A stretch of DNA of 64,000 nucleotides from Speluncibacter jeojiensis (GTDB lineage Bacteria; Actinomycetota; Actinomycetes; Mycobacteriales; Mycobacteriaceae): the NCBI RefSeq assembly GCF_029589495.1, contig NZ_JAAIVF010000003.1, positions 62,001 through 126,000 of the forward strand, given 5' to 3'. The notes under the pieces are model-generated. The model did no database searches and was not told the DNA's origin. It saw only the letters and a program-made list of their open reading frames with translations. Of the stretch, positions 4,819 through 30,220 are shown one piece after another; positions within the stretch are counted from its first letter, which is position 1, and each line of letters begins with the position of its first letter. Made by a program: the position numbers and the translations under genes.

Positions 4819-6158
4819 TGCTCACCAGGTTCGTCCGCGCGCAACTGGCGGTGTTCGCAGTGCTCGCGATCGTCGGCATGGCGCTGGTCGGGGTGGACTA
4901 CGTCAAGGTCCCGGCGGCGCTGGGCATCGGCAACTACACGGTCACCTTGAACCTGCCGGCTTCCGGTGGGCTGTACCGCTTCTCGAACGTCACCTACCGC
5001 GGCATCAACGTCGGTCAGGTCAGCGCCGTGTCGGTCGTCCCCGACGGGGTGCGCGCGACGCTGCGGCTACGCAGCTCGACGAAGATCCCCCGCTCGGTGC
5101 AGGTGCGGGTGCGCAGCATGTCCGCGATCGGCGAACAGTACGTGGACCTGCTGCCGAGCTCGACCGCCGGTCCCTACCTGCACGACGGCGAGGTCCTGAC
5201 GGTGCCGGCCACCGCGCTGCCCACCGCGATCGGGCCACTGCTCGACCGCGCGCAGACACTGCTGGACTCGGTGCCGCAGGACCGGCTCCGCGAGGTCATC
5301 GACGAGTCGTTCCGCGCGTTCGGCGGGCAGGCGCCCGCGATGTCGAAGCTGCTCGACTCGACGGTTTCGTTCGTGAACCAGACCTCCGATGCCGCCGAAC
5401 CGACCCGGGACCTGGTCCAGCGGCTCGGCCCGCTGCTCGATGACCAGGCGGTCACCAGCAGCGAGATCCGCACCTGGGTGTCGGGCCTGGCCGACATCAC
5501 CGGGCAGGTCCAGGCCGCCGACCCGCACGTGCAGTCGCTACTACAGAGCGGCCCGGCGACGGCACAATCGGCACAGGACCTGCTGGCCCAGGTGCAGCCG
5601 ACACTGCCCGTGCTGCTGAAGAACCTGACCAGCGTCGGGCAGGTGCTGCTGACCTACAACCCGGCGATCGAGCAGATCATGCTGCTGCTGCCGCCGCTCG
5701 AGGCCGCGCAGACGACGGTGGTGCAGACGGGGGCGCCCGACGGCGCCGCCGCCGTCGACTTCGTCATGGAGGCCAACGATCCCGCGGCCTGCACCACCGG
5801 CTACCTGCCGGCCTCCGCGCGCCGCAGTCCCACGGACTTCTCGATCCCCGACACCCCCTCCGACCTGTACTGCAAGGTGCCGCGCGACTCGAAGTTCGCG
5901 GTGCGCGGCAGCCGCAACCTGCCCTGCCTGGCGGTGCCCGGCAAACGCGCGCCCACCCCGCAGGAATGCGCGAGCGACAAGCCGTACACCGCCGCCGGCA
6001 CCAACGCGCCCGACGAGATCGATCCGGCACCGGCGGTGGGCACCACCGGCTACAACCCGGCCGACGGGACCTACGTGGGACCCGACGGCAAGACCTATCG
6101 GGTCGACACACCCCCCGACGGGAGGGCACCGGCATGGCCGTCGCTGCTGACCAAGTGA
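4815..6158 (+). CDS. mceF: MceF family protein
   Basis: The protein has 447 residues. An N-terminal transmembrane segment (about residues 5-24) is followed by the MlaD domain (LNLPASGGLYRFSNVTYRGINVGQV) and the helical domain. The long C-terminal region contains several Cys residues (AACTTGY, LYCKVP, NLPCLAVPG, QECASDK), typical of MceF tails, and ends with a repetitive Tyr/Gly/Pro/Asp stretch. Two in-frame ATGs (4815 and 4818) overlap the mceE stop; 4815 is used. It closes the six-gene mce set. The first Mas gene begins 25 nt before its stop, so the whole group reads as one operon. Confidence 0.92.
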   Translation: MMLTRFVRAQLAVFAVLAIVGMALVGVDYVKVPAALGIGNYTVTLNLPASGGLYRFSNVTYRGINVGQVSAVSVVPDGVRATLRLRSSTKIPRSVQVRVRSMSAIGEQYVDLLPSSTAGPYLHDGEVLTVPATALPTAIGPLLDRAQTLLDSVPQDRLREVIDESFRAFGGQAPAMSKLLDSTVSFVNQTSDAAEPTRDLVQRLGPLLDDQAVTSSEIRTWVSGLADITGQVQAADPHVQSLLQSGPATAQSAQDLLAQVQPTLPVLLKNLTSVGQVLLTYNPAIEQIMLLLPPLEAAQTTVVQTGAPDGAAAVDFVMEANDPAACTTGYLPASARRSPTDFSIPDTPSDLYCKVPRDSKFAVRGSRNLPCLAVPGKRAPTPQECASDKPYTAAGTNAPDEIDPAPAVGTTGYNPADGTYVGPDGKTYRVDTPPDGRAPAWPSLLTK

Positions 6159-6652
6159 CGGTCCGGCGGGTGCTTCGGCGGCGCTGGATGCTCCGCACAC
6201 TTGCGGCGGCCGTGCTGCTCGCCCTGGCCGCCGCGACCACCGTGCTTACAGTCGGTCATCGCGCCGACGACCGGCGGGAAGCCTTTGCGCGGCAAGCAGA
6301 GTCGACCGCGAGGCAGAGCGTGCTGGCGATCCTCGACATCGACGCGGGATCGGCCCGCGCCGACGCGCAGCGGTTCGTCGACGCGAGCGCGGGGGAGTTC
6401 CGCACCGCGATGTCCGCGCAACTCGACAACTATGTGCGGGCGCTGCAGCAGTCCCACGTCACCTCGACCGGGGAGGTGCCGGCCATCGGCATCGAAAGCC
6501 AGACAGAGGATTCGGCGGTCGTGCTCGTCGCCGCCCGCACCCATGTGTCCACGTCGGGCGGCGCGGCGCAGGACCGCAACGTGCGGCTGCTGGTGACCGT
6601 CACCCGCGACGGCGGCGCGGCGAAGCTGACCCGGCTGGAGTTCGTCTCGTGA
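6134..6652 (+). CDS. Mce-associated membrane protein (Mas)
   Basis: The protein has 172 residues. A short cytoplasmic N-terminus (Arg-rich, VRRVLRRRW) leads into one membrane segment at about residues 22-41. A soluble domain of alternating helices and strands follows, ending in a beta-rich part (VRLLVTVTRDGGAAKLTRLEF). This topology and the position directly after mceF are those of Mce-associated proteins, which in mycobacteria stabilise Mce complexes and belong to the same NTF2-like fold as the next gene. The start lies within the 3' end of mceF. The GTG start of the next gene overlaps its stop (GTGA). Confidence 0.82.
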   Translation: MAVAADQVTVRRVLRRRWMLRTLAAAVLLALAAATTVLTVGHRADDRREAFARQAESTARQSVLAILDIDAGSARADAQRFVDASAGEFRTAMSAQLDNYVRALQQSHVTSTGEVPAIGIESQTEDSAVVLVAARTHVSTSGGAAQDRNVRLLVTVTRDGGAAKLTRLEFVS

Positions 6653-7149
6653 CGGCGCGCCTTGTGCCGACACCGCAGCGGATCGGAGGACTCCTGGTGG
6701 TGTGCCTCGCGGTCGGGCTGGTCACGGCGTCGGCTCTGCTGTGGCAGGCGCGTGGCCACGCCGCGGCGGCTCAGGAGGCAAGGAGCGACGCGGTCGCCGC
6801 CGCGACGACCGTCGTCGAACAGATGCTGACCTACTCGGGCCAAACGGTCGACCACGACCTCGCCGCCGCGCAGGCCGGTTTGGCCGGGTCGTTCGCGAGC
6901 CGCTACAAGACGCTGGCGGACCGGACGATCGCGCCGGCGGCGAAGGCCCAGGGCATCGACACCAAGGCGACGGTCGCGCACGCCGGGGTCATCAGCGCCG
7001 ACACCGACCACGCCCAGGTGCTGCTGTTCGTCGACCAGCTCACCACCACCGCGGCCCAGCCCGCACCGACGGTCGCCGACAGCCGCGTGCGCGTCTCGCT
7101 CATCCGCGACGGCAACCGGTGGAAGGTGACCGGCTTCGATCCGCTGTGA
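6649..7149 (+). CDS. Mce-associated membrane protein (second Mas)
   Basis: The protein has 166 residues. One N-terminal membrane helix (about residues 12-31) is followed by an extracytoplasmic domain with a helical half (TTVVEQMLTYS, SRYKTLADRTIAP) and a C-terminal strand pair ending VRVSLIRDGNRWKVTGFDPL. That ending is the usual NTF2-like C-terminus of Mas proteins, in which the strand carries a Trp-Lys-Val motif. It is translationally coupled to the first Mas gene through a GTGA overlap and is the last gene of the mce operon; the next gene starts about 100 nt further on with its own possible promoter. Confidence 0.82.
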   Translation: MTARLVPTPQRIGGLLVVCLAVGLVTASALLWQARGHAAAAQEARSDAVAAATTVVEQMLTYSGQTVDHDLAAAQAGLAGSFASRYKTLADRTIAPAAKAQGIDTKATVAHAGVISADTDHAQVLLFVDQLTTTAAQPAPTVADSRVRVSLIRDGNRWKVTGFDPL

Positions 7150-7245
7150 CGCGCGCGCCTGCACTCGGGAATTTCTGTCACCGGATACGGGATTGACCGC
7201 GGCGTAAACTGAATCCCACAAGTGCCTGAGCGCGGGGGGTGCGCC

Positions 7246-8736
7246 ATGCCGGGGTTTTACCCTATGTGGGTCGTGGTGACCCATTGGTTGAACGTGCTGT
7301 TCATGATCATGATGGCCCGTAGCGGCATCGAGATCCTGTCGGCGTTTCCGAAGTTCTATTGGCGTGACGACTGTCCGCCGGGACGCGAATGGCTTCGCCT
7401 GTCCAAGAAGGTGTTCTCCTCCGAACCGCGCAGACCCTGGTCCTCGCTCGACGAGGAGGAGTCGTGGAATCCGGTGATCGCGCTCCCGGGCCGTAAGAAC
7501 CTGGGCCTGGGCCGGCACTGGCACTTCATGACGCTGCAGTTCTGGATCGCCACCGGCGCCGTGTACGTCGCCATGGTGTTCGCGACCGGGTACTGGCACT
7601 ACCTGATCCCGGACCACTGGTCGATCATTCCCGACGCGATCCGCCAGATCGGCACGTATCTGCACTTCGAGTTGGGCCAGCCGATCGCCGGTCAGCCGTT
7701 CAATCCGGCGCAGAAGCTCATGTACTTCACCGTGATCTTCGTGGTGTCGCCGCTGATGATCCTCGCCGGGGCAGCCATGTCGCCGGCCGTGATCGGTCGG
7801 TTCCCCTGGTACGGAAAGCTTTTCGGCGGCAAGCAGGGCGCGCGCAGCGTGCACTTCCTCGGCATGTGCTTCTTCGGCATGTTCGTCGTCGTGCACGTGC
7901 TGATGGTCATCCTGCACGGGCTGCCCAGCCAACTCACCAGGATCGTCCTCGGCAGCGGCCAGAAGGACACCACCTTGGGCCTCGCCCTCGGGTTGACGAT
8001 CCTGTTCGTCATCTTCGCCATCCAGGTGCCGCTGTCCATCGTGTCGCTGCGCCGACGCCGGCTGGTGCAACACCTGACCGGGCTGATGGTCGATCCGCCG
8101 CAGCGTGTGCTGAGCCGGTCGTTCAGTTCGCGCCAGCAGTACACCGACGCCGACATCTCCCCGTACCACCGCGTCAACGGCTATCCGCCCACGGATCCCG
8201 CGTACGAGGAGATGGCGCGCCACGAGTTCCGTGACTACCGGCTCGACGTGGGCGGCCTGGTCAAGCACCCGGTGTCGCTGTCGGTGGCCGATCTGCGCGC
8301 GCTGGGCACGGTCGCCTACATCGCCAAACACAACTGCATCCAGGGCTGGACGTCCATCGGCAAGTGGGGTGGCATCCCCGTGAGCACGATCATCGACCTG
8401 GTCGAGCCCGAGGACGAGGCGAAGGTCGCCGTCTTCTATGCCTTCGACGACAAGGGGCTGACCGAGGCCGAGGGACGCTACGGCCACTTCTACGGCAGCA
8501 TCCCGCTGTGGTTGGCGAGCAAACCGCAGACGATCCTGGCCGTCGACATGAACGGGGGACCGCTGCCGATCGAGCACGGGGCGCCGGTGCGGCTGCGGTG
8601 CGAGTCTCAGCTCGGCTTCAAGATGGTCAAGTGGGTGCGGGGGATCGAGTTCGTCGCCGACTACAGCCACGTCGGGATGGGGCAGGGCGGCTGGCGCGAG
8701 GACCAGCAGTTCTACTCGAACTCGGCCGGCATCTGA
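7246..8736 (+). CDS. Membrane cytochrome b561-type domain fused to sulfite-oxidase-like molybdopterin oxidoreductase
   Basis: The protein has 496 residues. Residues 1-275 form a multi-pass b-type cytochrome with candidate heme His residues in VTHWLN (near residue 13), GRHWHFM, RSVHFLGM and VVVHVLMVILHG. The C-terminal half (from about residue 310) is an oxidoreductase molybdopterin-binding domain: EFRDYRLDVGGLVKHP opens it, and the Mo-ligand Cys lies in AKHNCIQGWTSIGKWGG. The design suggests electron transfer between a cofactor site and the quinone pool within one chain. ATG 7246 follows a G-rich ribosome-binding site; a GTG at 7222 would add eight residues. A TAAACT -10-like hexamer lies at 7205-7210. 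The substrate cannot be inferred; sulfite, sulfoxide or another oxo-substrate are all possible. Confidence 0.85.
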   Translation: MPGFYPMWVVVTHWLNVLFMIMMARSGIEILSAFPKFYWRDDCPPGREWLRLSKKVFSSEPRRPWSSLDEEESWNPVIALPGRKNLGLGRHWHFMTLQFWIATGAVYVAMVFATGYWHYLIPDHWSIIPDAIRQIGTYLHFELGQPIAGQPFNPAQKLMYFTVIFVVSPLMILAGAAMSPAVIGRFPWYGKLFGGKQGARSVHFLGMCFFGMFVVVHVLMVILHGLPSQLTRIVLGSGQKDTTLGLALGLTILFVIFAIQVPLSIVSLRRRRLVQHLTGLMVDPPQRVLSRSFSSRQQYTDADISPYHRVNGYPPTDPAYEEMARHEFRDYRLDVGGLVKHPVSLSVADLRALGTVAYIAKHNCIQGWTSIGKWGGIPVSTIIDLVEPEDEAKVAVFYAFDDKGLTEAEGRYGHFYGSIPLWLASKPQTILAVDMNGGPLPIEHGAPVRLRCESQLGFKMVKWVRGIEFVADYSHVGMGQGGWREDQQFYSNSAGI

Positions 8737-8867
8737 CCGTGCAGGGAACCGGGGCGACGCTGGTGCCGTCACTGGTTCGGACGCCCGGTTCGACCGATTG
8801 GACGCGCTGGGCCTGCAACCCGAGGGCGAACTGCCCGTCGGGTTGCGCTCGGGCGCACGGTGGCGCG

Positions 8868-9128
8868 TCAGGTACGCGATCTGACGCTGTCGCGTGCCGC
8901 GGCCGCATCCTCGGCGACCGCGGGCGTGCCGCCCGCCTTCTCCGCGGCAGTGCGCCGGGCGAACTCGCTGAGCCGCTCGACGACCGGTTGCCCGGCGAAC
9001 ACCGATCGGTCCCGGGTCCACCTGTCGAAGGTGGCCTCGTCCGCACCGGGTCCGTACCCGCCGTAGATCCGGGCCCTGCACAGGGCCACTCGTTGCTGGA
9101 TTGCGCGCACGTCATCTGCCGTGGTCAT
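8868..9128 (-). CDS. Small uncharacterised protein
   Basis: The protein has 86 residues and no recognised family. The ATG at 9128 is well supported by GGGAGG seven bases upstream on the minus strand, which is why the longer in-frame extension to 9209 is not used. The protein is soluble and mostly helical in character, with charged segments (AIQQRVALCRARIY, TFDRWTRDRSVF, ERLSEFARRTAAEK) and an Ala-rich acidic end. It lies alone between the plus-strand molybdopterin enzyme and the minus-strand protease. Function unknown; it could be an orphan regulatory or stress protein. Confidence 0.6.
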   Translation of the reverse strand: MTTADDVRAIQQRVALCRARIYGGYGPGADEATFDRWTRDRSVFAGQPVVERLSEFARRTAAEKAGGTPAVAEDAAAARDSVRSRT

Positions 9129-9259
9129 CTCAGTGCCTCCCGTCACGCCCTGAAAAGACATGGTCGCCGAGAATTCCGTTCCCCGGCGTTCACTGCCCCC
9201 ACAGTCCACGGTTCCAGTCTAGTACCGCTGGACCGGTCGCGACCAGGGTCGACGACCGC

Positions 9260-10000
9260 TCACCCGACCGGCTGCGCCGCCGCGCTGCCTATCTGGTCGA
9301 CCGTCTGCAGCGCGCTGGTGATCGGGATCGCGTAGCCCTGCACGCCGGCCGGGTCGGGCATCGCTGCGGTGTCCATGCCGACGATCCTGCCGTCCGCGTC
9401 GACCAGCGGCCCACCGGAGTCACCGGCCTGGATGTCGGCGCTGACCTGGATCAGCCCGTGCAGGTACTCGAATCCGCCGCTGGTCGTGTCCATGATCGGC
9501 AGCGACTGGTCGAGTGCGGCGACCACGCCCGGCGCCGGTCGCGGTGGACCACCGCGACCACCGGCATTTCCCAGGCCGACGACGTGATCGCCCACGCGGA
9601 CGGACGTCGAATCGCCGAACGGCGGCGTCGGCAGCCCCGAGGCGCCGACCAACTGCACCACCGCGATGTCGCGTTTGCGGTCGACGCCCACCACCCGCGC
9701 CGGATAGGTCGCACCGTTGCCGAGGTCGGTGGCCGTCATGCTGACCGAGTCCTCGACGACGTGATAGTTCGTCAGCACCTCGCCACCCGAGCTGAGCACG
9801 ATGCCGGTGCCCGCCAGTTTCCCGAACTGGCTACCGCCCAGCACCGAGTTGATGTCGACCATGCCGGCGGTCACCGCCTGCAGATCCGGTGGGGCGGCCC
9901 CGGCCGGTGCGGCACCCACCGCCGTGCACAGCGCCGAGATCAGTGCTACGAACAACGTCCCACTCGCCAACGACCGCCCCGCAGCCCGACAAACCGGCAT
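9260..10000 (-). CDS. Exported trypsin-like serine protease (PepA-like)
   Basis: The protein has 246 residues. A signal peptide (hydrophobic core about residues 11-30, cleavage near AGAAP) precedes a chymotrypsin-fold protease. The catalytic triad is visible: His80 in TNYHVV, Asp111 in RKRDIAVVQL and Ser195 in QAGDSGGPL. The sequence around it (AGTGIVLSSGGEVLTN, GLGNAGG, PGVVAALDQS, GLIQVSADIQ) closely resembles mycobacterial PepA (Mtb32A), but the chain stops soon after the protease core, so the C-terminal PDZ domain is missing. The start at ATG 10000 follows a purine-rich stretch; upstream in-frame codons lack a plausible signal-peptide layout. The upstream region, facing the small peptide gene, contains three direct repeats. 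Confidence 0.9.
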   Translation of the reverse strand: MPVCRAAGRSLASGTLFVALISALCTAVGAAPAGAAPPDLQAVTAGMVDINSVLGGSQFGKLAGTGIVLSSGGEVLTNYHVVEDSVSMTATDLGNGATYPARVVGVDRKRDIAVVQLVGASGLPTPPFGDSTSVRVGDHVVGLGNAGGRGGPPRPAPGVVAALDQSLPIMDTTSGGFEYLHGLIQVSADIQAGDSGGPLVDADGRIVGMDTAAMPDPAGVQGYAIPITSALQTVDQIGSAAAQPVG

Positions 10001-10118
10001 GAGCACCCACCAGCTCTCCTCGACGCGAGCTTTCGTGGCGATCGCCGCGAAAGCGGCCCGAAACGACGGTAGCACCGGCTGACCTGCGCAGATGGCGATC
10101 CACACGGATCACGCCACG

Positions 10119-10159
10119 TCAAGAAGGAGTCGTACGGCATCAAGAAGGCATCAAGAAGG
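10119..10159 (+). repeat. Three direct TCAAGAAGG repeats in a divergent promoter region
   Basis: The 9-mer TCAAGAAGG occurs at 10119-10127, 10140-10148 and 10151-10159, with start-to-start distances of 21 and 11 bp, close to two and one helical turns. It sits between the divergent starts of the PepA-like protease (10000) and the 39-codon peptide gene (10303). Same-face direct repeats are typical of response-regulator or activator sites. That role is inference; the repeats themselves are exact. The remaining intergenic sequence from 10001 to 10302 shows no other clear feature. Confidence 0.6.
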
Positions 10160-10302
10160 CGGCGCCGGCCGCCGCCGCGTCCCTACCTTCGTGGTGTCCG
10201 GGGTTGCCCAGGTTTCGCCGGACGGCCGATCGAACCGGCACCCGGGACAGGACCCCGGCCGGCCGCGGCAAGCTTCCCGACCCGACGACACGAGGGCTTT
10301 CC

Positions 10303-10422
10303 ATGTCATCCACCGAATTCACAAGCCTGCTGACCGCCTTCACGACCATCCTGCAGTTCGCCAGTGGCTCAGCTTCCGGCTCCTCGGGAACCTCGCCCAC
10401 CGCAACCTCTCCGGCCGCATAG
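10303..10422 (+). CDS. 39-residue Ser/Thr-rich peptide
   Basis: The short ORF starts at an ATG five bases after GAGGG and ends 23 nt before a strong hairpin terminator, so it has the surroundings of a genuine small gene. The peptide has a helical amphipathic first half (FTSLLTAFTTILQFA) and a low-complexity Ser/Gly/Thr/Pro/Ala second half. It has no classical signal peptide. Tiny amphipathic proteins of similar size act as porins or envelope peptides in corynebacteria, but there is no sequence match to those that I can recognise. The position across from an exported protease and next to repeated upstream elements suggests a regulated, possibly secreted or membrane-active product. Function unknown. 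Confidence 0.5.
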   Translation: MSSTEFTSLLTAFTTILQFASGSASGSSGTSPTATSPAA

Positions 10423-10444
10423 CCGAACGCGACGCGACAACCGC

Positions 10445-10482
10445 CACTTCCTGCGGCCGCCCTCAGGTGGCCGCAGGAAGTG
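10445..10482. terminator. Bidirectional hairpin terminator
   Basis: A perfect 14-bp stem (CACTTCCTGCGGCC at 10445-10458 pairing with 10469-10482) encloses a 10-nt loop. It lies between the convergent ends of the 39-codon peptide (10422) and the PEBP gene (10486). A short CTTTC follows on the plus strand. It can serve both genes. Confidence 0.8.
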
Positions 10483-10485
10483 CTT

Positions 10486-11058
10486 TCAGCGCGTGTAGAA
10501 GCCGTCGAGCCGGCCGCGGCCCAGCACCGGACCGCGGACACCGGCCAGCACGGTCTTGGCGCGGGCGCTCTCGAGGTCCACACCGCCGTCGGCAGCCCGC
10601 AGTGGCTCGGCCAGCGCGAAGATCTGAAAGACGTAGCGGTGGGGGCCGTGCCCCCTGATCGGCATGGGACCCACATACCCGCGTCCCATGCCCGAACGCA
10701 GCACCCGCACACCGGCCGGGGCGGTGTCCGCACCCAGGGCGCCGCGCGCCAGCTGGACACGGTCGGCGTCGAGCAGGGCGACGCAGTGCACGAAGGGCAG
10801 CCGCGTGGGGGAGTCGACGTCCTGGATCACCAACAGCCACTGGGCTGTCCGACCCGGGGCCGCGGTCCACGACAGAGCGGGTGACAGGTTCTCGCCGCCC
10901 GCGCGACGACCCGCGTGCGCCCGGGAGAGGACGCCCTCGAGCTCGAAGTCGCTGCTGCGCAACCTCACCGAATCCGGGCCGGCGAACCCCGGCAGATTCC
11001 ACGCCAACCGGCCCTCGCCGGCGCGCCGATTGCGCAGCATTTGCCCGAGTATCGCCAT
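10486..11058 (-). CDS. YbhB/YbcL family (PEBP, Raf-kinase-inhibitor-like) protein
   Basis: The protein has 190 residues. Two family signatures are present: ENLSPALSWTAAPGRTAQWLLVIQDVDSPT with its ligand-binding Asp/Ser/Pro triad, and GYVGPMPIRGHGPHRYVFQIFAL, the conserved C-terminal block of bacterial PEBP proteins. No signal peptide or membrane segment is seen, so it is likely cytoplasmic. These proteins bind phosphate- or phosphoethanolamine-like anions; the bacterial role is mostly unknown. The frame ends directly before the shared terminator. It is about 30 residues longer at the N-terminus than the minimal family, a stretch with no recognised motif. Confidence 0.87.
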   Translation of the reverse strand: MAILGQMLRNRRAGEGRLAWNLPGFAGPDSVRLRSSDFELEGVLSRAHAGRRAGGENLSPALSWTAAPGRTAQWLLVIQDVDSPTRLPFVHCVALLDADRVQLARGALGADTAPAGVRVLRSGMGRGYVGPMPIRGHGPHRYVFQIFALAEPLRAADGGVDLESARAKTVLAGVRGPVLGRGRLDGFYTR

Positions 11059-11181
11059 GGCCCAGTACCTCGTTCGGCGGTCGGTGATGATGCGTCCCGA
11101 CGCCGCATTTTACGGTGTCGGCTTGGCGTCCAAGCGAGTTCGGCACCCGCTGTTTCCTGCGCGGTGATCGACTTCATCGCT

Positions 11182-11187
11182 TATAGT
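11182..11187 (+). promoter_or_regulatory. TATAGT -10 element upstream of GH25 lysozyme
   Basis: TATAGT is an excellent -10 hexamer and lies 6 nt before an in-frame ATG at 11194. No convincing -35 is seen. Transcription starting near 11194 would give either a leaderless mRNA or a leader of about 138 nt to the ATG at 11332. Confidence 0.5.
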
Positions 11188-11331
11188 CCCTGAATGATCA
11201 TGATCCGGTCGTTGATCGTCAAGCAATCGGGGATGCTGATGCGCAGCGGATATGGAAGACACGACTCCGGTCGGCAGCGTTTCGGGGTGCCGTATGCCGG
11301 ACGGCACCGGGTCGCGGCACCGCGGCCGAGA

Positions 11332-12264
11332 ATGCGGCGCCGCAGCACGGTCCTGGCCGCGCTGGCCGCCGCCGTCGTGCTCACCGGTGCCGGCGCCACC
11401 CACGCGGCCGCGGTCACCGGTCCCGACGTTTCTTCCTGGCAGCACCCCGGCGGGTCACTCATCAACTGGGGCGCCGTCAAGGCGGCCGGGCAGAGCTTCG
11501 CCATGGTCAAGGCCACCGAGGGCCTCGACTACGTCAACCCGTTCTTCGTCCCGGACGTGCTCGCCATGCGCGCGTCGGGCGTGGCCACCGGCACCTATCA
11601 CTACGCCGACGTCACGCTTCCGGCCGCACCGCAGGCGGCGTTCTTCTCGGCGATGACCTTCGGCCAGCACGGGCCGATGGACCTGCCGCCGGTGATCGAT
11701 TTCGAGGACGCCAAGGGCCAGTCGCCGGCGCAGTTGAAATCGTGGCTGCACCAGTACCTGGACGCGGTCCAGTCGCTGACCGGTAAGACGCCGATCATCT
11801 ACACCTATCAGAGCTTCTGGCGCAATCAGATGGCCAATACCACCGACTTCGCCAACTATCCGCTGTGGATCGCCGACTACAACGGCCAGAACCAACCGGG
11901 CGCGCTGCCCGGCGGCTGGAAGAACTGGACGTTCTGGCAGTACACCGACTCCGGGCACCTGCCGGGCGTGCAGGGCAACGTCGACCTGAACAAGTACAAC
12001 ACCTCGCTCGGGTCGTTCGCCGACTACATCAACTCGCCGGGGGTGACCAGCCCGCAGTCCGACGCCACCACGACGACGACCTCGCCGGACCAGAGCACCC
12101 CCGACCAGAACGCTGCACCGCAGCCCCAGGCCGCACCCGCCGAGCAGCAGGCCCCCAGCCAGGGGCAGGACGACGACGGCCAGTCGACGCTGACGCCCGA
12201 GGACATCGCGAAGATCGAGTCCCTGGCGACCACGCTGCTCAACACGCTGTCCAACTACTCGTAA
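11332..12264 (+). CDS. Secreted GH25 lysozyme-like hydrolase
   Basis: The protein has 310 residues from this start. A signal peptide (MRRRSTVLAALAAAVVLTGAG) is followed by a GH25 domain: GPDVSSWQHP opens the barrel, VIDFEDAKG carries the catalytic acids, and PLWIADYN, WTFWQYTDSG and NVDLNKYN close it. A Thr/Ser/Gln/Pro-rich linker of about 60 residues and a short helix (TPEDIAKIESLATTLLNTLSNYS) follow. Such enzymes cleave the MurNAc-GlcNAc bond in peptidoglycan. The frame extends to ATG 11194 just after a TATAGT hexamer, but that extra 46-codon stretch has clearly less GC-biased third positions, so the start remains uncertain. No strong ribosome-binding site precedes either ATG. Confidence 0.85.
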   Translation: MRRRSTVLAALAAAVVLTGAGATHAAAVTGPDVSSWQHPGGSLINWGAVKAAGQSFAMVKATEGLDYVNPFFVPDVLAMRASGVATGTYHYADVTLPAAPQAAFFSAMTFGQHGPMDLPPVIDFEDAKGQSPAQLKSWLHQYLDAVQSLTGKTPIIYTYQSFWRNQMANTTDFANYPLWIADYNGQNQPGALPGGWKNWTFWQYTDSGHLPGVQGNVDLNKYNTSLGSFADYINSPGVTSPQSDATTTTTSPDQSTPDQNAAPQPQAAPAEQQAPSQGQDDDGQSTLTPEDIAKIESLATTLLNTLSNYS

Positions 12265-12306
12265 ACGGGGTTTCGACGTAACCTCCGAGGGGCGGGGAGG
12301 TGAGCT

Positions 12307-13488
12307 GTGGTTCGCGGCCGTGCGGGATTGGTGGTCGCCGGCGCGGGTGCGCGCGGCGCCTATGAGGCTGGGGCACTGTCGGTGCTGTTGCCGTGGATGA
12401 GCCGCACCGGGCCCGCCCCTACCGTGCTCGTCGGCACCAGTGCGGGCGCCCTGAACGTGGTCGGGCTCGGCGGCATGGCGCACCTGCCGCCGTTCCAGGC
12501 TGCCGAACAACTCGTCGAAACCTGGTCGGCGGTGCAACTGCGGGACGTGTTCGGGTTGGCCAGCGGCCTCGAGACCGGACTGGGCTACCTGGGCCAGCTG
12601 GCGGGGCTTCCGGTGCGGTTGCCGAGCCTGCTCGACACCGAGCGGCTGCGGTCCCGGTTGACCGAGTGGCTGCCGCTGGAGTCGTTGCACGAGAACATCG
12701 ACGCCGGCCGGGTCGACGCGGTCGCGGTGGCCACCACCTCGACGGTCACCGGCGGCACGGTCGTATTCGTGGAGAAGAACGATGCGGTCGCTCTGCCGCC
12801 CAATGACGTCGGCCGCAACATCACCTACGTCGAGACCCGGCTGACCGTCGAACACGTGATGGCCTCCGCGGCGGTGCCACTGCTGTTCCGGCCCGTGCGG
12901 GTCACCGAACCGGCGCGCTGGGCCGGCTGGTACGTCGACGGCGGACTGCGGCTGAACACCCCGCTCAAACCCGCGCTCTCACTCGGCTGCACCCGGCTCG
13001 GTGTGGTCGCGACCCAGCCGATGACCTCCACGACGTCCCCGCCGCCGCGTGCGCACCGCCGCACCCGGGGCGAGCCGCCCGGCGACGCGATCGAACCCGA
13101 TGTGTATGCGGTGGCGGCGCTCTCGCTGCGGGTGCTGATGGCCGACCGCATGATCGAGGACCTGCACCGACTCGAGGAGTGGAATGCGGGGCTCGAACCG
13201 GGAGCAGCCTCCCGCGCCGTCGAGGTGATCTTCGCCGGGCCGGCCGCCGGGGAACGCGGCGACATCTCCGCGCTCGCCGACGCCGAGTTCCATCGGCGGT
13301 ACGGCGGGCTCGGCGGGCTGCGCAGCCCGTCGATGTGGATCCTCGAACGTCTCATCGGCGGCGACCCCGACGACCACGGGAACCTGCTCAGCTACCTGTT
13401 CTTCGACTCGGGATTCACCGACGCCGTCGCGAAACTCGGAGGCCGGCACGCCCGCGAGCGGCTGGGCGAGGGTGACCGCGACGGGTGA
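12307..13488 (+). CDS. Patatin-like phospholipase family protein
   Basis: The protein has 393 residues. The Gly-rich oxyanion-hole motif GAGARGAYEAG (residues 12-22), the nucleophile motif VGTSAG with Ser45, and the catalytic Asp211 in YVDGGLR form the Ser-Asp dyad of patatin-type acyl hydrolases. No signal peptide is visible, so it is probably cytosolic or membrane-associated. Likely activity is on phospholipid or acylglycerol esters. GTG 12307 is preceded by GGGGAGGTGAGCT, a good ribosome-binding site. A Pro/Arg-rich insert around residues 240-260 (SPPPRAHRRTRGE) interrupts the C-terminal half. It converges with the MocR gene. Confidence 0.87.
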   Translation: MVRGRAGLVVAGAGARGAYEAGALSVLLPWMSRTGPAPTVLVGTSAGALNVVGLGGMAHLPPFQAAEQLVETWSAVQLRDVFGLASGLETGLGYLGQLAGLPVRLPSLLDTERLRSRLTEWLPLESLHENIDAGRVDAVAVATTSTVTGGTVVFVEKNDAVALPPNDVGRNITYVETRLTVEHVMASAAVPLLFRPVRVTEPARWAGWYVDGGLRLNTPLKPALSLGCTRLGVVATQPMTSTTSPPPRAHRRTRGEPPGDAIEPDVYAVAALSLRVLMADRMIEDLHRLEEWNAGLEPGAASRAVEVIFAGPAAGERGDISALADAEFHRRYGGLGGLRSPSMWILERLIGGDPDDHGNLLSYLFFDSGFTDAVAKLGGRHARERLGEGDRDG

Positions 13489-13511
13489 GCTGCGCGCCGC
13501 AGCGCAGATCG

Positions 13512-14849
13512 CTATCGCACGGCCGAGACGATCGCGCCGAGCGCCTGTTCGAATTGCTCGTCGCTGATCCCGCCGAAGCCGAACACCACGCCATGCCGTT
13601 GCTGGGTGCGGGTGTAGTCGGAGAGCCTGGGCAGTTCGAGTCCGGCAGCCCGCGTTGCTCTTACGGCGGCGTTCGCCTGATCGGCGGAGAGTTCGATGGT
13701 CACGTACATCCCCGCCACCGGACCGGTGAGCAGTCCTGGTACGGCCTTCTGGATCGTCGCACCGCGTGCGGCATACACCTTGCGGGCCGAGCGGATCAGC
13801 CGGTCGACGTGACCGTCGCGCAGCATCGCGAGATAGGCCTGCTGGGTGGGCCAGGAAGGGAGGTCGTGGGTGCGTCGACGTAGTTCGTCGATGCGCTCGA
13901 CGATCTCCTGCGGGGCCACGAGCCAGCCCAGGCGCAGCCCCGGGGACACCGACTTCGACGCGGTGCCCAGGTAGATGCCCCGGTCGGGATCGAGCGCGGT
14001 CAACGCGGGCGGTGGCGCGACGTCGTAGCGGAACTCGGAGTCGTAGTCGTCCTCGACGATGAAGAAGTCGTGGTGGCGGGCGTGTTCGAGGAGTGTGACG
14101 CGAGCGGCCGCCGGCATGGCGATTCCGGTGGGGTGCTGATGCGCGGGGGTGACGTAGACCGCCGCGACACCGGGCGGGATCGCCGTCACGTCAAGGCCGT
14201 TCGGCGAAACCGGGACGTCCACGACGGTGCGTCCCATGCTCTCGGCAACGCGCACGGCGGCGCGGTAGCCGGGGTCCTCCACGGCGACCGACCCGGGCAC
14301 GATGACCGACAGCAGGTGCCGCAGTCCGTCGGTGGCTCCGGAGGTGAGCACAACGTGGTCGGGATCGCAGGACAGGCCGCGGGTACGGCGAAGCCGGTCG
14401 GCCAGTGCCCGGCGCAGCTCCGCCACCCCTCGGTGGTCGGGGTAGCCAGCCGGCGGGGTCAGTGTCGAGACCTGACGCCAGGCGCGGCGCCAACCGGTCT
14501 GATGCCGTGGGTCGATCCACGGTGTGCCGCTGTCGAGCCGGACCAGATCCGGCGCGTGGGAGGTCCGTTCGGTGCGGCGGCGAGACGTCCCGGTGCGCTG
14601 CGCCGTCGCGGCCACAAAGGTCCCCGATCCCCGACGCGCCTGCACCCAGCCCTCGGCGAGCAGCTGATCATAGGCCTGCTCGGCGACGCTGCGACTGACG
14701 CCCAGTTCGGTTGCGAGCGCGCGGGTGCTGGGCAGGCGGTCGCCGGTCCCCAACGTGGCATCCGTGATCAACCCGCGGATGCGGTCGGCGAGTTGCACGC
14801 CGAGAGGGATCGCCGCATGCCGGTCCAACGTCACGGTGAGGATGCTCAT
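13512..14849 (-). CDS. MocR/PdxR family transcriptional regulator (GntR HTH + aminotransferase fold)
   Basis: The protein has 445 residues. An N-terminal GntR winged helix (about residues 12-80, with STRALATELGVSRSVAEQAYDQL) joins a fold-type I aminotransferase domain. The PLP-binding Lys lies in TASKSVSPGLRLGW, and further cofactor contacts are recognisable in LTSGATDGLRHLL and EDDYDSEFRYD. MocR proteins sense PLP or amino-acid derivatives and usually control a divergently oriented neighbour. Here that neighbour is a PNPOx-like flavin-binding protein, 66 bp away with an inverted repeat between them. This suggests vitamin-B6- or flavin-related control, but the effector is not proven by sequence. 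Confidence 0.9.
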   Translation of the reverse strand: MSILTVTLDRHAAIPLGVQLADRIRGLITDATLGTGDRLPSTRALATELGVSRSVAEQAYDQLLAEGWVQARRGSGTFVAATAQRTGTSRRRTERTSHAPDLVRLDSGTPWIDPRHQTGWRRAWRQVSTLTPPAGYPDHRGVAELRRALADRLRRTRGLSCDPDHVVLTSGATDGLRHLLSVIVPGSVAVEDPGYRAAVRVAESMGRTVVDVPVSPNGLDVTAIPPGVAAVYVTPAHQHPTGIAMPAAARVTLLEHARHHDFFIVEDDYDSEFRYDVAPPPALTALDPDRGIYLGTASKSVSPGLRLGWLVAPQEIVERIDELRRRTHDLPSWPTQQAYLAMLRDGHVDRLIRSARKVYAARGATIQKAVPGLLTGPVAGMYVTIELSADQANAAVRATRAAGLELPRLSDYTRTQQRHGVVFGFGGISDEQFEQALGAIVSAVR

Positions 14850-15610: not shown

Positions 15611-16480
15611 TCAGACCGCCGTCTGCGAGGCGGCGGCGCGGTCGCCGAGGTCGTCGAGCGTCATGCGGCGGCGCGGGGGCCGGTCGAGGATCATCGTCGA
15701 GGTCAGCTTGCGGTGGGAGTCGACGTGCAGCAGTTCGCCCGAGCGCACCTCACGCCAGTCCGGGTCCTCGTCCATCCGCTCGCTCGCGACGACGACCGCG
15801 CCGCGGCTCGACAGCGGCCCCGACCGGGCGCGGATCCGCCCGGCGGTGCTGGCCTGGTCCAGATGGCGGTCGCCGTGCGGCCCGCCGGGAACACGGGGAA
15901 GCACGAAGAGTCCGTGCGTGTCCGGGTAGCGCAGCGCCCACATCTCGGTTGCCGTGGTGACAATGAGGTTCAGCGAGAACACCGGGATCGTGTCGGCCAC
16001 CCAGCTCGCGGCGGCCGCGATGCCGGCACCGACATCGCCGTCGTTCGCGTCGATCCGCTTGGTGATCAACGCGAACAGTCGTTCGGAGTCGGTGTCGCCG
16101 TGCACCATCGACCGGTATTCGCCGAGTTCGTCGTCGAGCGTGGGGAGGTCCGCGATGACACCGTTGTGCGCGAACAGCCGGCCGTGTTGTTCGAACGGGT
16201 GGGTGTTGCGCGGCTCGACCGCACCGGTGGAGGCGTAGCGGATGTGCGCGAGGAAGGTCATCGACTCGCGATCCTTCGCCTCCTCGGCGAACCGGCGGTC
16301 GGCATAGGCGGCCAACGGCTGCTTCTCCACCAGCGGTTCGCCCTCGGGCGTGAAGGTGCCCAGGCCCGTGCCGTCGGGCTCGCGCCGGCTCTGCTGCGCG
16401 AGACTGTCCGGTGCCTCGAGCAGCCAGAACGTCGCGTGGACACGTCTCGGGGCGGCCGACAGTGCGAAGAGCCGACACAT
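15611..16480 (-). CDS. Class II glutamine amidotransferase (Ntn hydrolase, YafJ/EgtC-like)
   Basis: The protein has 289 residues. The start ATG 16480 places Cys at residue 2 (MCRLFALS), the N-terminal nucleophile of class II amidotransferases. A GTG three codons upstream would bury it, and GAAGGGGC lies at normal distance from 16480. Further conserved pieces are PDGTGLG, HIRYASTGAVEPRNTHPF, LFAHNGVIAD and HGDTDSERLFALI. The glutamine-hydrolysis site is complete, but there is no attached synthase domain, as in EgtC, where the enzyme removes a gamma-glutamyl group. It diverges from a gamma-glutamate ligase-type gene only 80 bp away, which makes a gamma-glutamyl substrate plausible. Confidence 0.87.
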   Translation of the reverse strand: MCRLFALSAAPRRVHATFWLLEAPDSLAQQSRREPDGTGLGTFTPEGEPLVEKQPLAAYADRRFAEEAKDRESMTFLAHIRYASTGAVEPRNTHPFEQHGRLFAHNGVIADLPTLDDELGEYRSMVHGDTDSERLFALITKRIDANDGDVGAGIAAAASWVADTIPVFSLNLIVTTATEMWALRYPDTHGLFVLPRVPGGPHGDRHLDQASTAGRIRARSGPLSSRGAVVVASERMDEDPDWREVRSGELLHVDSHRKLTSTMILDRPPRRRMTLDDLGDRAAASQTAV

Positions 16481-16560
16481 GATGGGCACGCCCCTTCCGA
16501 GAAGGACCGACAGGACTACGACTGATCACCATTGTGTCCCACCAGCGCTACGCTGAGTGG

Positions 16561-18912
16561 GTGAACGGCCGCCGCAAGGTCGGAGTCGAGGAAGAGTTCC
16601 AGCTCATCGACGTCAAGACCCGCCGGTTGACCCCTCGCGCGCACGAGTTACTGGCCCGTCTTCCCGACGATCGGTTCGTGGCCGAGCTGCAGCGCTGCGT
16701 GGTCGAGGTCAACGGCGGCGTGTTCGACGACTTGTCTTCTTTGCGAGCCGATCTCGTCGCCAATCGCACGCTTCTGGTGGACACCGCCGCCGAGCTCGGG
16801 GTGGGGGTCGCGGCGGCGGGTGCGATGCCGCTGGCCTTGCCCACCGAGTTGGAGGTCACCGGGTCGCCCCGCTACCGCCACATGTTGGCCGAGTACCAGT
16901 TGCTGGCGCGCGAACAGTTGATCTGCGGCACCCAGATCCACGTCAACCTGCCGGACCCGGACGAGGCTGTGCTGGTCGCCGGCCGCGTCGTGCCGTATCT
17001 GCCGATCTTCCTGGCCCTGAGCGCGAGCTCGCCGTTCTGGTCCGACGGCACCGACACCGGCTATGCGAGCGTGCGGGCGCTGGTGTGGCCGCGCTGGCCG
17101 AGCACCGGCCCTGCCGCCCAGGTCAGCACCGCGGCCGAGTACACCGCGCTGATCGACGACCTGGTCTCGAGCGGGGTGATCAGCGATCCGGGCATGGTGT
17201 ACTTCGACGTGCGACCGTCCGTGCACTGCCCGACGCTGGAGTTGCGGGTCTGCGACAGCTGCCCGCGGGTCGACTCGGTGACGTTGATCGCCACGCTGTT
17301 CCGGGCGCTCGTCGAGCACGAGGTCACCCGGCTGCGCGCCGGGGTGCCGCCGCCCCCGATCGCGCCGACGCTCGCCCGGGCGGCGCTGTGGCGGGCCGCG
17401 CGGTCGGGCCTCGAGCACGAACTCGTCGACGTCGAGCGCGCGGTGCCGCGTCCGGCCGGCGAGATGGTCGAGGCGCTGGTGAACCTGCTGCGGCCCGAAC
17501 TCGAGGACACCGGTGACTGGGACCTGACGACCGAACTGTGCGAGCGGGCGCTGCAGGACGGCAGTTCGGCGGCCCGTCAGCGGCGCGCGCTGCTGCGCCG
17601 CGGCAGGCTCACCGACGTGGTGGACCTGCTGGTCTCCGAAACTGCCGGCCGCCCGCAGTCGGTGCCGGCGGACGAGCCCGCCCCGGAGCGGCCCGCACCG
17701 GCGCCCGGCGCAGCGGCGACCACGCATCGGCGCCACCGAGGCCTCACGTCCGTCGGCGAGTCGACCGCCACCACGGCCGGGGTCGGCGAGGCCCAGGTCG
17801 TGGCGTGGCGCCGCGACCTGCACGCGCACCCGGAACTGTCGTTCGAGGAGCGGCGCACCACGGCGGTGGTCGCCGAGCATCTGCGCGGACTGGGCCTGTC
17901 GCCGGTGCTCCAGCCGGGTGGCGCCGGGCTGTGGTGCGATCTCGGCGCGGACACCGACCGCGCGGTCGCGCTGCGGGCCGACCTCGATGCGCTGCCGCTG
18001 TCCGAGGCCACCGGGCTGCCCTATGCATCGACCGTGCCGGGCGTGTGCCACGCGTGCGGCCACGACGCGCACACCGCGATGCTGATGGGTGCGGCCGCGA
18101 TGCTGGTGGGGGACCCGCCACCGCATCGGGTCCGGTTGGTGTTCCAGCCGGCCGAGGAGACCACCCCGGGCGGGTCGCTCGACACCATCGCGGCGGGCGC
18201 GCTCGACGGGGTGGCGAAGATCTTTGCGCTGCACTGTGATCCGCACCTGGAGGTCGGCAAGCTGGCCACCCGCGAGGGGCCGATCACCTCGTCGAACGCC
18301 GCGGTGACGGTGCGGCTGTGGTCGGCCGGCGGGCACACCGCCCGCCCGCACCTGACCGGCGACCTCATCCACGCGGCGGCGGTGCTGGTCACCGGGTTGG
18401 CGTCGGTGCTCGACCGCCGGCTCGACGCGCGCACCGCGACAATTCTGACCTGGGGCAAGGTCGCAGCCGGGCAGGTCGGCAACTCGGTGCCCGAGTCGGG
18501 GGAGTTGGTGGGGACGCTGCGCAGCGCGTCGCACGAGACGTGGGCGACGCTCGAACCGTTGGTGGCGCACACCATCGGGCAACTACTGGCGCCGTACGGC
18601 GTGCGCCACGAGCTGTCGTATCAGCAGGGGGTGCCGCCGGTCGTCAACGAGCCCGGGTGCACCGAGGACCTGCGCGAGGCGATCGGCGCGGTGGTCGGGT
18701 ACGACAACCTGGTGGAGGCGTCGCAGTCCAGCGGCGGCGAGGACTTTGCGTGGTACCTCGAGCACGTGCCGGGGGCGATGGGCCGGCTCGGCGTGTGGAA
18801 CGGGGTCGACCGCCGGGAGGACCTGCACCAGCCGTCGTTCACGCTCGACGAGCGCGCGCTGATGTACGGCGTGCGCACCTTCGTCGCCGTGGCGCACAGC
18901 GGACTCGACTGA
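16561..18912 (+). CDS. Fusion of GCS2-family carboxylate-amine ligase and M20D amidohydrolase
   Basis: The protein has 783 residues. Residues 1-360 are a glutamate-cysteine ligase type 2 domain: RRKVGVEEEFQLID opens it, with AELQRCVVEVNGG, GTQIHVNLPD and TLELRVCDSCPRVDS as further blocks, as in YbdK and EgtA. A Pro/Ala-rich linker spans about 362-412. Residues 415-783 are an M20D peptidase/amidohydrolase: DLHAHPELSFEE, metal-site motif VCHACGHDAHTA (near 498), FQPAEETTPGG, ALHCDPHLEVGK and SGGEDFAWYL. One chain could thus make and break amide bonds on related substrates. GTG 16561 is used because a TACGCT hexamer ends 6 nt before it; GTG 16534 would add nine residues. The frame runs without interruption through both domains. 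Confidence 0.85.
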   Translation: MNGRRKVGVEEEFQLIDVKTRRLTPRAHELLARLPDDRFVAELQRCVVEVNGGVFDDLSSLRADLVANRTLLVDTAAELGVGVAAAGAMPLALPTELEVTGSPRYRHMLAEYQLLAREQLICGTQIHVNLPDPDEAVLVAGRVVPYLPIFLALSASSPFWSDGTDTGYASVRALVWPRWPSTGPAAQVSTAAEYTALIDDLVSSGVISDPGMVYFDVRPSVHCPTLELRVCDSCPRVDSVTLIATLFRALVEHEVTRLRAGVPPPPIAPTLARAALWRAARSGLEHELVDVERAVPRPAGEMVEALVNLLRPELEDTGDWDLTTELCERALQDGSSAARQRRALLRRGRLTDVVDLLVSETAGRPQSVPADEPAPERPAPAPGAAATTHRRHRGLTSVGESTATTAGVGEAQVVAWRRDLHAHPELSFEERRTTAVVAEHLRGLGLSPVLQPGGAGLWCDLGADTDRAVALRADLDALPLSEATGLPYASTVPGVCHACGHDAHTAMLMGAAAMLVGDPPPHRVRLVFQPAEETTPGGSLDTIAAGALDGVAKIFALHCDPHLEVGKLATREGPITSSNAAVTVRLWSAGGHTARPHLTGDLIHAAAVLVTGLASVLDRRLDARTATILTWGKVAAGQVGNSVPESGELVGTLRSASHETWATLEPLVAHTIGQLLAPYGVRHELSYQQGVPPVVNEPGCTEDLREAIGAVVGYDNLVEASQSSGGEDFAWYLEHVPGAMGRLGVWNGVDRREDLHQPSFTLDERALMYGVRTFVAVAHSGLD

Positions 18913-22092: not shown

Positions 22093-22767
22093 TCATGGCC
22101 ACAATCGGGTTCGAGTCCAGGATCGGTCTACCGCGTCGTAGCGGATGCGCTGGTGTCGCCGGGTGGGGTCGCCTTGCCAGAACTCGACTCGCTCGGGCCG
22201 TACGGCGTACGACACCCACTCATCGGGTACTCCGTTCGGCGACGAGTCCAGCTCGGACCGTGCCTGGTCCAACGCCGCGTCGAGTTCCGCCGGGTCGAGG
22301 AACGGCTGGCTCTGGCGTCTGGTCAGTGCCATTGCTTTCGAACCGGTGGGCCGAGCGAGGAAGTCCGCCCCGGTCACCTCCGCCGGATCCGCTACCACCG
22401 GGCCGCTGATGCGGACCTGGCGAACAAGCTCGGGCCAGTAGAACGTCAACGCCGCAACCGGGCGGGCTGCCAGGTCCCGGCCCTTCTGACTGTCCGCGTT
22501 GACCCCGAAGTGCCAGCCCGACGCGTCGACATCCTTCAGGATCAGTACCCGAGCTGACGGCCGCCCGTCGTTGTCTACGGTCGACAGCGTCATCGTGTGC
22601 GGCTCAACGGCGTTCGATCGGATCGCCAGCAGGAGCCAGTCGACGAACAGCTCGACCGGATTGTCCGGTGTAGCCAACGGGTCGAACGGTGGGCCGGCGC
22701 CGTTCAACACCGGAAGCCCACGCAACATCGAACGCATACCGCCCGCGGGTACCGCTTGGCTCAGCAT
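22093..22767 (-). CDS. Pyridoxamine 5'-phosphate oxidase family protein (PdxH-like)
   Basis: The protein has 224 residues. The PNPOx layout is present in order: NPVELFVDWLLLAIRSNAVEPHTMTLSTVDNDGRPSARVLILKDVD (FMN and substrate region), NADSQKGRDLAARPVAALTFYWPELVRQVRISG, the Ser-rich helix with RRQSQPF, and a C-terminal dimerisation domain ending RRHQRIRYDAVDRSWTRTRLWP. Canonical PdxH oxidises PNP/PMP to PLP with FMN. The C-terminal Arg-x-His substrate motif is modified here (RRHQR), so a broader alkylamine or B6-like substrate is possible. It lies between the TA operon and the SUKH gene in a patch of somewhat lower GC. Confidence 0.85.
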   Translation of the reverse strand: MLSQAVPAGGMRSMLRGLPVLNGAGPPFDPLATPDNPVELFVDWLLLAIRSNAVEPHTMTLSTVDNDGRPSARVLILKDVDASGWHFGVNADSQKGRDLAARPVAALTFYWPELVRQVRISGPVVADPAEVTGADFLARPTGSKAMALTRRQSQPFLDPAELDAALDQARSELDSSPNGVPDEWVSYAVRPERVEFWQGDPTRRHQRIRYDAVDRSWTRTRLWP

Positions 22768-24097: not shown

Positions 24098-24973
24098 TCA
24101 GGCCTTGGTGTCGAACGTGCCCGGCACCTTCAGCGCCGCGGCGATCGCCGCGATCAGGTCGGTGTCGGTGCGACCGCCGGTCTGCGGCCATCCGGCGAAC
24201 GCCGCCGGGTCCTGCCCGGTCAGCTGCGTCAGCACCACCGCCAGCGCGTCGACGAGCGTGCGGTTGCCGAGTTGGGGCCAGCCCCTGCCGTTCGGCCCGA
24301 GCAGCTGCACCCAGATGTCCTGAAGTTGTTGCGCCTGTGCGGGGGTCACGTCGTCTCCTGACGGGGTGAGTAGTTGCTGGAGCTGTGCGGCGGTGCCACG
24401 GAAGGCGTCGGCGTCGACGGTCTGCCCGGCGACCTGGGCGGCATCGGTGAACTGCAGCACGACCGGTGTGGCGCCGCCGTAGGCGAACCAGTTGCCCGAC
24501 TGGTCACCCGGATACAGGTCGCTGGCGTAGCCGGTGCCGGACACGTAGTCCGACGCGACCAGCCCCGGCACCGCGGACAGGTCGGGGGAGCCGATCTGCT
24601 GCCAATACCAGTGCGGGATGTACGACAACGCGACGTGCCCGCCCGCAGCGGTGATCGCGTTCAGGACGGCCCAGAAGTTCGCGATGTCGCCGGAGTTCGC
24701 CTCGAAGTCGAGCATCACCGGGATCGACGTGTCGCCCAGATGGCTGACCAGGTTGTTCGCCTGCGCGGCCGGATCGTCGCCGGTGACGTAGTGGTACCCG
24801 GCCAGGATCAGGCCGGCGGCGCGCGCGGCGTCCCGGAACCCAGGCCAGGTCGGGTTCACGTAGCCGCTGCCCTCGGACACCTTGACGAACACGAAGTCGA
24901 ACCCCTCGGCCTTGACCTCGGCGAGGTTCAGTCCCGCCTGGTAGCTGGAGATGTCGATGCCGTACAGGGTCAC
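24098..24973 (-). CDS. Phage-type GH25 endolysin-like protein
   Basis: The protein has 291 residues. GH25 signatures: LYGIDISSYQAG near the N-terminus, VFVKVSEGSGYVNP, GYHYVTG and the catalytic block VMLDFEANSG, followed by LVASDYVSG and the barrel end. The C-terminal about 90 residues (QQLQDIWVQLLGPNGRGWPQLGNRTLVDALAVVL) resemble the tail seen in lysins of actinobacteriophages. There is no signal peptide, again as in phage lysins, which need a holin. GTG 24973 is used since the barrel starts immediately after it; longer starts lack a ribosome-binding site. It lies 142 bp from the divergent AraC gene. Probably a prophage remnant or a domesticated lysin. Confidence 0.78.
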   Translation of the reverse strand: MTLYGIDISSYQAGLNLAEVKAEGFDFVFVKVSEGSGYVNPTWPGFRDAARAAGLILAGYHYVTGDDPAAQANNLVSHLGDTSIPVMLDFEANSGDIANFWAVLNAITAAGGHVALSYIPHWYWQQIGSPDLSAVPGLVASDYVSGTGYASDLYPGDQSGNWFAYGGATPVVLQFTDAAQVAGQTVDADAFRGTAAQLQQLLTPSGDDVTPAQAQQLQDIWVQLLGPNGRGWPQLGNRTLVDALAVVLTQLTGQDPAAFAGWPQTGGRTDTDLIAAIAAALKVPGTFDTKA

Positions 24974-25115
24974 ACGCCTCGCCGACCTTCCCGGGTCTTC
25001 GATTCCGTTCTGCCACATCGTGCGTGGCGCGGAGTATTCCACGCGCATCGCGTCGATCGGTTCCGCCGCGCGGTGTGCGCCGCGGAACCGCCGGTGAGAT
25101 GGCAGCATCGCATGG

Positions 25116-25559
25116 GTGACCGACACCCCCGCCACGTCGCAACGCCTGCGCGACCTCGCCCTGCTGCGCAAGGTGCGCGACCGGATCGACCGCGACCACG
25201 CCCAGCCGCTGGACGTCGAGGCGCTCGCCCGCGGTGTGCACATGTCCGCCGGGCACCTGAGCCGGCAGTTCCGGCTGGCCTACGGCGAATCGCCGTACTC
25301 GTACCTGATGACGCGGCGGATCGAACGGGCGATGTCGCTGCTGCTGCGCGGCGACCTGAGCGTCACGGAGGTGTGCTTCGCGGTCGGCTTCTCCTCGCTG
25401 GGCACGTTCAGCACCCGGTTCACCGAACTGGTCGGCATGCCGCCGAGCGTCTACAAGCGCGAGGCCGCACACTCGACCGCCGGGATCCCGCCGTGCGTGG
25501 TCAAGCAGGTGACCAGACCGATCAGGAATCGAGAAGCGCCGAGCGCCGACGGTCCCTAG
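25116..25559 (+). CDS. AraC family transcriptional regulator (DNA-binding domain only)
   Basis: The protein has 147 residues. It contains essentially only the paired helix-turn-helix of AraC proteins: first HTH with VEALARGVHMSAGHLSRQFRLAYGESPYSYL, second with VTEVCFAVGFSSLGTFSTRFTELVGMPPSVYK. There is no effector-binding domain, so control may rest on expression level or a partner protein. It is followed by two VOC-fold genes in the same direction, the first only 10 nt downstream, so it probably regulates them and itself. The GTG start has no Shine-Dalgarno sequence but follows a CAGCAT hexamer at suitable distance for a leaderless transcript. Confidence 0.88.
   Translation: MTDTPATSQRLRDLALLRKVRDRIDRDHAQPLDVEALARGVHMSAGHLSRQFRLAYGESPYSYLMTRRIERAMSLLLRGDLSVTEVCFAVGFSSLGTFSTRFTELVGMPPSVYKREAAHSTAGIPPCVVKQVTRPIRNREAPSADGP

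Positions 25560-27787: not shown

Positions 27788-30220
<2,433 letters not shown>

Follow-up and report, generated by a model that had tools for sequence, protein, structure and literature searches.

A GCS2-M20D fusion protein in Speluncibacter jeojiensis, a candidate make-and-break enzyme for a small glutamate- or glutamine-derived amide

What might a bacterium gain from a single polypeptide that carries both an amide-forming ligase and an amide-cleaving hydrolase, and does the amidotransferase encoded next to it take part in the same chemistry? The question is raised by a locus of Speluncibacter jeojiensis within the 64,000-nucleotide stretch of contig NZ_JAAIVF010000003.1 analysed here (the window). 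An earlier sequence-only reading of this DNA proposed a gamma-glutamyl-type pathway, in which a ligase-hydrolase fusion and a divergently encoded amidotransferase would be paired in the manner of EgtA and EgtC of ergothioneine synthesis. Here we describe the two halves of the fusion, the fate of the proposed pairing, the operon from which the fusion appears to descend, and the function that its ancestry suggests.

The fusion protein and its two halves

According to the open reading frame list, the fusion occupies one stop-free frame of 792 aa (16534-18912, plus strand), with an alternative GTG start at 16561, in which a GCS2/YbdK-fold ligase is followed by an M20D amidohydrolase. Its parts and its neighbour are as follows.

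16534..18912, plus strand: GCS2-M20D fusion protein, 792 aa (open reading frame, profile matches, conserved in L008-L014 and L087)
16573..17649, plus strand: ligase half, aa 14-372, YbdK/GCS2 fold (motifs, structural superposition)
17650..17787, plus strand: variable linker, about aa 373-418 (predicted disordered, pLDDT <50 at aa 378-415)
17788..18909, plus strand: M20D amidohydrolase half, aa 419-792 (profile, motifs, structural superposition)
15611..16480, minus strand: class II amidotransferase-fold protein (GATase_4), 289 aa from its ATG (neighbour, judged outside the system)

The continuous frame with an intact HACGHDAH motif, as first read from the sequence, is borne out by matches to both profiles and by the position of that motif at aa 506-513. 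The fusion recurs in independent assemblies (L008-L014 and L087), among them those of Prescottella subtropica (L008, 79%) and of R. opacus, R. koreensis, R. wratislaviensis and R. tibetensis, and a family survey places it in 7/221 genomes from 3/31 genera, the R. opacus group among them. The joined ligase-hydrolase protein is thus real and no product of misassembly. In the linkers of the fusions, internal M20 start codons inspected by eye lack a clear ribosome-binding site. In Rhodococcus sp. JCM 9791 (L013) the fusion is frameshifted in the draft assembly, and a second GCS2 gene of HxH type (4521-5828, 41% identical) lies directly upstream of it. Elsewhere in the S. jeojiensis genome, GCS2 fragments in two short frames (G000:C13:248879-249522, L186) apparently represent a broken gene.

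In a profile search, the ligase half matched GCS2 (PF04107) over aa 16-293 (2.8e-54), and it passed family model NF010041 with 360.7 bits (cut-off 332). The published motif list of the GS-fold ligase superfamily, which tolerates a glutamine in strand 4, as in PafA (PMC2588565), is represented by GhExE in strand 1 (GVEEE, aa 17-21), [HDQ]x[NH] in strand 4 (QIH, aa 134-136) and Ex[RK]x2D in strand 6 (ELRVCD, aa 236-241). Further motifs are YASVR (aa 177-181) and DVRP (aa 225-228), and every motif checked for the active site of the ligase is present. In an AlphaFold2 model of the fusion (mean pLDDT 72.6, linker disordered at 378-415), residues 6-371 superpose on 1tt4 (Z 38.6) and YbdK 1r8g (Z 38.0) over 345-347 residues, which places the modelled half in the YbdK fold. 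With these YbdK/GCS2 carboxylate-amine ligases it has in common the fold (Z 38), GhExE, ExRxxD and both arginines; unlike them, it has QxH and not HxH in strand 4, carries an attached M20D domain and is only ~22% identical. The QxH form was seen in 13/14 checked GCS2 proteins linked to AsnO, whereas YbdK-type GCS2s have HxH. Motifs and model together predict a complete GCS2/YbdK-fold carboxylate-amine ligase. The fold alone does not prove ligase chemistry of the fusion, because its GS-fold relatives include the hydrolase Dop.

In the second half, Peptidase_M20 matched aa 479-787 of the fusion (1.9e-36), the TIGR01891 family model was passed with 303 bits (cut-off 154), and the metal and catalytic motifs RADLDALP (481-488), HACGHDAH and PAEET (539-543) are accompanied by ALHCDP (565-570), GGHTARPH (599-606) and DLHQP (763-767). 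Model residues 414-792 superpose on the N-alpha-acylglutamine aminoacylase 6slf (Z 23.0). The fold, all metal and catalytic motifs and 26-31% identity link this half to the M20D amidohydrolases YxeP (1ysj), AcyX (6slf) and ILL2 (1xmb), in none of which, unlike here, M20D forms the C-terminal half of a ligase fusion. Motifs and model likewise predict a complete M20D amidohydrolase. The genome also holds an M20D paralogue (56%; L188, contig C1, 4400-7043) that adjoins a gene of the AIG2/GGACT family and a putative lpdA.

The divergent amidotransferase and ergothioneine

The neighbouring gene is, as had been claimed, a divergently oriented class II amidotransferase with Cys2: its longest frame (15611-16489, minus strand) matches GATase_4 at 1e-18, and an ATG at codon 4 gives the start MCRLF, with Cys2 correctly placed. 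The 80 bp first reported between the two genes holds if the starts are the GTG at 16561 and the amidotransferase ATG at 16480; the longest frames are ~44 bp apart.

A system in which the fusion and this amidotransferase make and use a gamma-glutamyl thiol could draw on the divergent arrangement in this genome and on a likeness at the level of folds, since the superfamilies of EgtA and EgtC are those of the ligase half and of the amidotransferase, respectively. The curated models separate them. The amidotransferase scored 83.9 bits against a cut-off of 218.65 for EgtC (TIGR03442), and EgtA (TIGR03444, cut-off 370.8 bits) was absent among the matches of the ligase half down to 0.001. Bona fide egtA-egtB-egtC-egtD genes stand in a row on another contig of the same genome (C17), and their products exceed all cut-offs (EgtA 444, EgtB 446, EgtC 272 and EgtD 359 bits).

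Nor is the pair conserved. Orthologues of the amidotransferase (64-68%) occur in other genomes, including every fusion genome tested, and blastp found none of them beside the fusion at the other fusion loci; in R. koreensis the two genes lie on the same contig about 2 Mb apart (2.27 Mb and ~4.34 Mb). The surroundings of the amidotransferase in seven genomes held no further homologue of the tested window genes (up to position 30000). A conserved linkage was rejected, as the orthologue contexts share no neighbour among the genes tested, and the side-by-side arrangement is therefore peculiar to this genome. Judged by profiles and gene order, the fusion is unrelated to ergothioneine, the EgtA/EgtC-like system is largely refuted already, and we consider it highly improbable. 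What survives of the earlier proposal is that the fusion itself plausibly both makes and releases an amide, of Glu or Gln; the amidotransferase as its partner does not.

Probable descent from a four-gene operon

A more informative context was found in R. zopfii, R. phenolicus, R. aetherivorans and R. sp. HM1, in which an operon encodes, in this order, a GCS2 domain fused to CP_ATPgrasp_2 (PF14403), AsnO, an S9 peptidase and an M20 protein. The first gene specifies the same ligase as the fusion (73-75% identical) and the last the same M20 (72-76%). The operon AsnO scores 927-959 bits (three proteins scanned) with the model for N-acetylglutaminylglutamine amidotransferase, TIGR03104, the cut-off of which is 570. 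Gordonia, Williamsia and Aldersonia carry genes for GCS2-CP_ATPgrasp, AsnO and S9 with no accompanying M20; frames of 863-974 aa were counted as GCS2-CP_ATPgrasp in the family survey, and the alignment check covers the fetched loci. The R. opacus group does have CP_ATPgrasp_2 proteins, which are different paralogues. One further locus (L196, genome G003, 5429-13774) has two tandem GCS2-CP_ATPgrasp genes followed by S9 and M20, without AsnO; by regular expression neither GCS2 has a complete motif set, and both may lack ligase activity.

Most Prescottella have a GCS2 without the CP_ATPgrasp domain. In two of them, the stand-alone GCS2 still ends in a relic of the CP_ATPgrasp C-terminus, with APAGSSITNSLRGGGGKDTW as its last 20 residues, and 0/2000 shuffles scored as high:

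L017 1046-2278 and L029 about 1054-2292: stand-alone GCS2 with a 20-residue CP_ATPgrasp relic

The double ligase is therefore the older form, from which the domain was excised. In the fusion genomes tested, S. jeojiensis included, no protein exceeded the TIGR03104 cut-off, and CP_ATPgrasp_2 was absent from the S. jeojiensis and L008 genomes.

In phylogenetic trees, all fusions form a single clade both for GCS2 (SH-aLRT 96) and for M20 (SH-aLRT 92), the latter beside the operon M20s. These comparisons indicate that the fusion arose once and that it descends from the GCS2 and M20 families forming the two ends of the operon. The simplest history, as judged by comparison, would be a deletion that removed all that lay between GCS2 domain and M20 and so joined the ends. 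The two nearest fusions are split by genus, that of S. jeojiensis belonging to g1 and that of G163/G216 to g10, a genus in which the unfused operon prevails among the other members; because g10 contains both forms, transfer or differential loss is suggested to complicate this history. An 872-aa frame in G028, considered as an independent fusion, was rejected as two separate adjacent genes.

With AsnO, S9 and CP_ATPgrasp gone, the fusion might be thought a functionless remnant in decay. Its frame is free of stop codons, its catalytic motifs are intact, and Nei-Gojobori omega across species is low in both halves (0.11-0.27 in GCS2 and 0.06-0.16 in M20, with 0.3-1.1 in the linker), so that both are maintained by purifying selection. 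Decay is thus a very unlikely explanation.

The presence of AsnO connects the operon with N-acetylglutaminylglutamine amide (NAGGN), an osmolyte that Ngg and AsnO produce (PMC8070244). In common with that pathway, the operon has an AsnO orthologue above the curated cut-off and a logic of ligase, amidotransferase and peptidase; unlike it, the operon lacks Ngg (TIGR03103), has GCS2(-CP_ATPgrasp) instead, and has S9 and M20 as its peptidases, while the fusion genomes also lack AsnO. Ngg was over its cut-off of 569 bits in 0/17 genomes, S. jeojiensis included, and the positive controls passed (L231, 873 bits; L246, 840 bits). AsnO orthologues were sampled in 43/396 Actinomycetota, and 20 of the regions were read. 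Canonical Ngg accompanied AsnO in L231 and L246, an M42 peptidase in L237, GCS2-CP_ATPgrasp with S9 in L228, L230 and L232, GCS2 alone with S9 in L241 and L242, and CP_ATPgrasp alone in L236 and L240. On this gene content, the operon looks like a ligase-swapped relative of the NAGGN pathway. A Frankia asnO cluster, in which the "Ngg" is <15% identical to known Ngg and a dipeptidase lies in between (PMC5563000), may by analogy represent the same kind of swap. If the ligase-swap reading of the operon holds, labelling actinobacterial clusters as NAGGN by their AsnO gene alone may misname the product.

A possible make-and-break enzyme

We propose that the YbdK/GCS2-fold domain would phosphorylate a glutamate-type carboxylate with ATP and join it to an amine, while the flexibly tethered M20D domain would hydrolyse the ligase product or a close derivative, such as an N-acyl or glutamyl amide. 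Both halves would act on the same metabolite, and one polypeptide could in this way set the pool of a small amide or peptide derived from Glu or Gln. The product of the ancestral operon would have been a NAGGN-related osmolyte consisting of an amidated peptide, and the reduced enzyme would make a simpler, non-amidated one. An amide ligase and an amidase also share a chain in glutathionylspermidine synthetase/amidase; unlike the fusion, that enzyme is built from the unrelated ATP-grasp and CHAP folds, and the precedent is an analogy only.

Making and recycling a single amide is favoured because GCS2 and M20 shared an operon before their fusion and because other GCS2-M20D pairs are adjacent elsewhere: different, unrelated GCS2 and M20D genes are neighbours in Nocardiopsis and in other orders. 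We rate such a bifunctional enzyme at about an even chance, and hold the descent from the operon with greater confidence than this. The wider claim, of a new single-chain class controlling a new Glu/Gln-derived amide, with NAGGN-like ancestry and a GCS2-CP_ATPgrasp double ligase replacing Ngg, is more tentative, and we incline somewhat against it.

The two halves might also act on different compounds. A YbdK-like ligase and an aminoacylase for the recycling of acyl-amino acids could have been joined by accident, both keeping house-keeping roles without a common metabolite, a view in line with the diverse acyl-amino acids hydrolysed by M20D relatives and with the long, variable linker. The earlier operon partnership of these very families and the adjacency of other GCS2 and M20D families in unrelated orders argue against accident, which we regard as improbable. 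Slightly less so, though still unlikely, is a cycle of protection and deprotection of the Puu or Egt type, in which the ligase would add glutamate to an amine, other enzymes would modify the conjugate, and M20, not the amidotransferase, would deglutamylate it. Such logic is known for gamma-glutamyl pathways, and both this precedent and the union of ligase and amidase in a single chain would suit it, as would the AIG2/GGACT gene adjoining the M20D paralogue; against it, no conserved modifying enzyme lies beside the fusion, and the flanks of L008-L011 and of the window have no gene in common among those tested.

Were the make-and-recycle reading correct, orphan ligases (AsnO-linked GCS2 and CP-ATP-grasp) would be assigned to a pathway and a type of product that can be defined, a natural fusion would tell which ligase and hydrolase have a metabolite in common, and R. 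opacus would offer an organism in which that metabolite can be sought directly. Our literature search found no paper on a GCS2-M20 fusion; an earlier account of the related operon may exist.

Several further observations were made along the way. Members of another GCS2 subfamily (the one scanned matches PRK13517.1-3) stand directly before M20D in several actinobacterial orders (L024-L034, L187, L189-L193), and the Nocardiopsis pair (L024) has an AIG2/GGACT gene and a putative lpdA a few genes away. Elsewhere in the window are a MocR-type PdxR-like regulator (13512-14849, minus strand; 371 bits, cut-off 320) and, not adjacent to it, a pyridoxamine phosphate oxidase family protein (22093-22767, minus strand). 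Two GH25-type lysozyme-like proteins lie ~12 kb apart (11194-12264, plus strand, recognized by eye only; 24098-25243, minus strand). An 810-aa protein (27788-30220, plus strand) matches ABC ATPase, DnaJ-type zinc and, weakly, UvrA DNA-binding profiles and is probably a UvrA-like paralogue.
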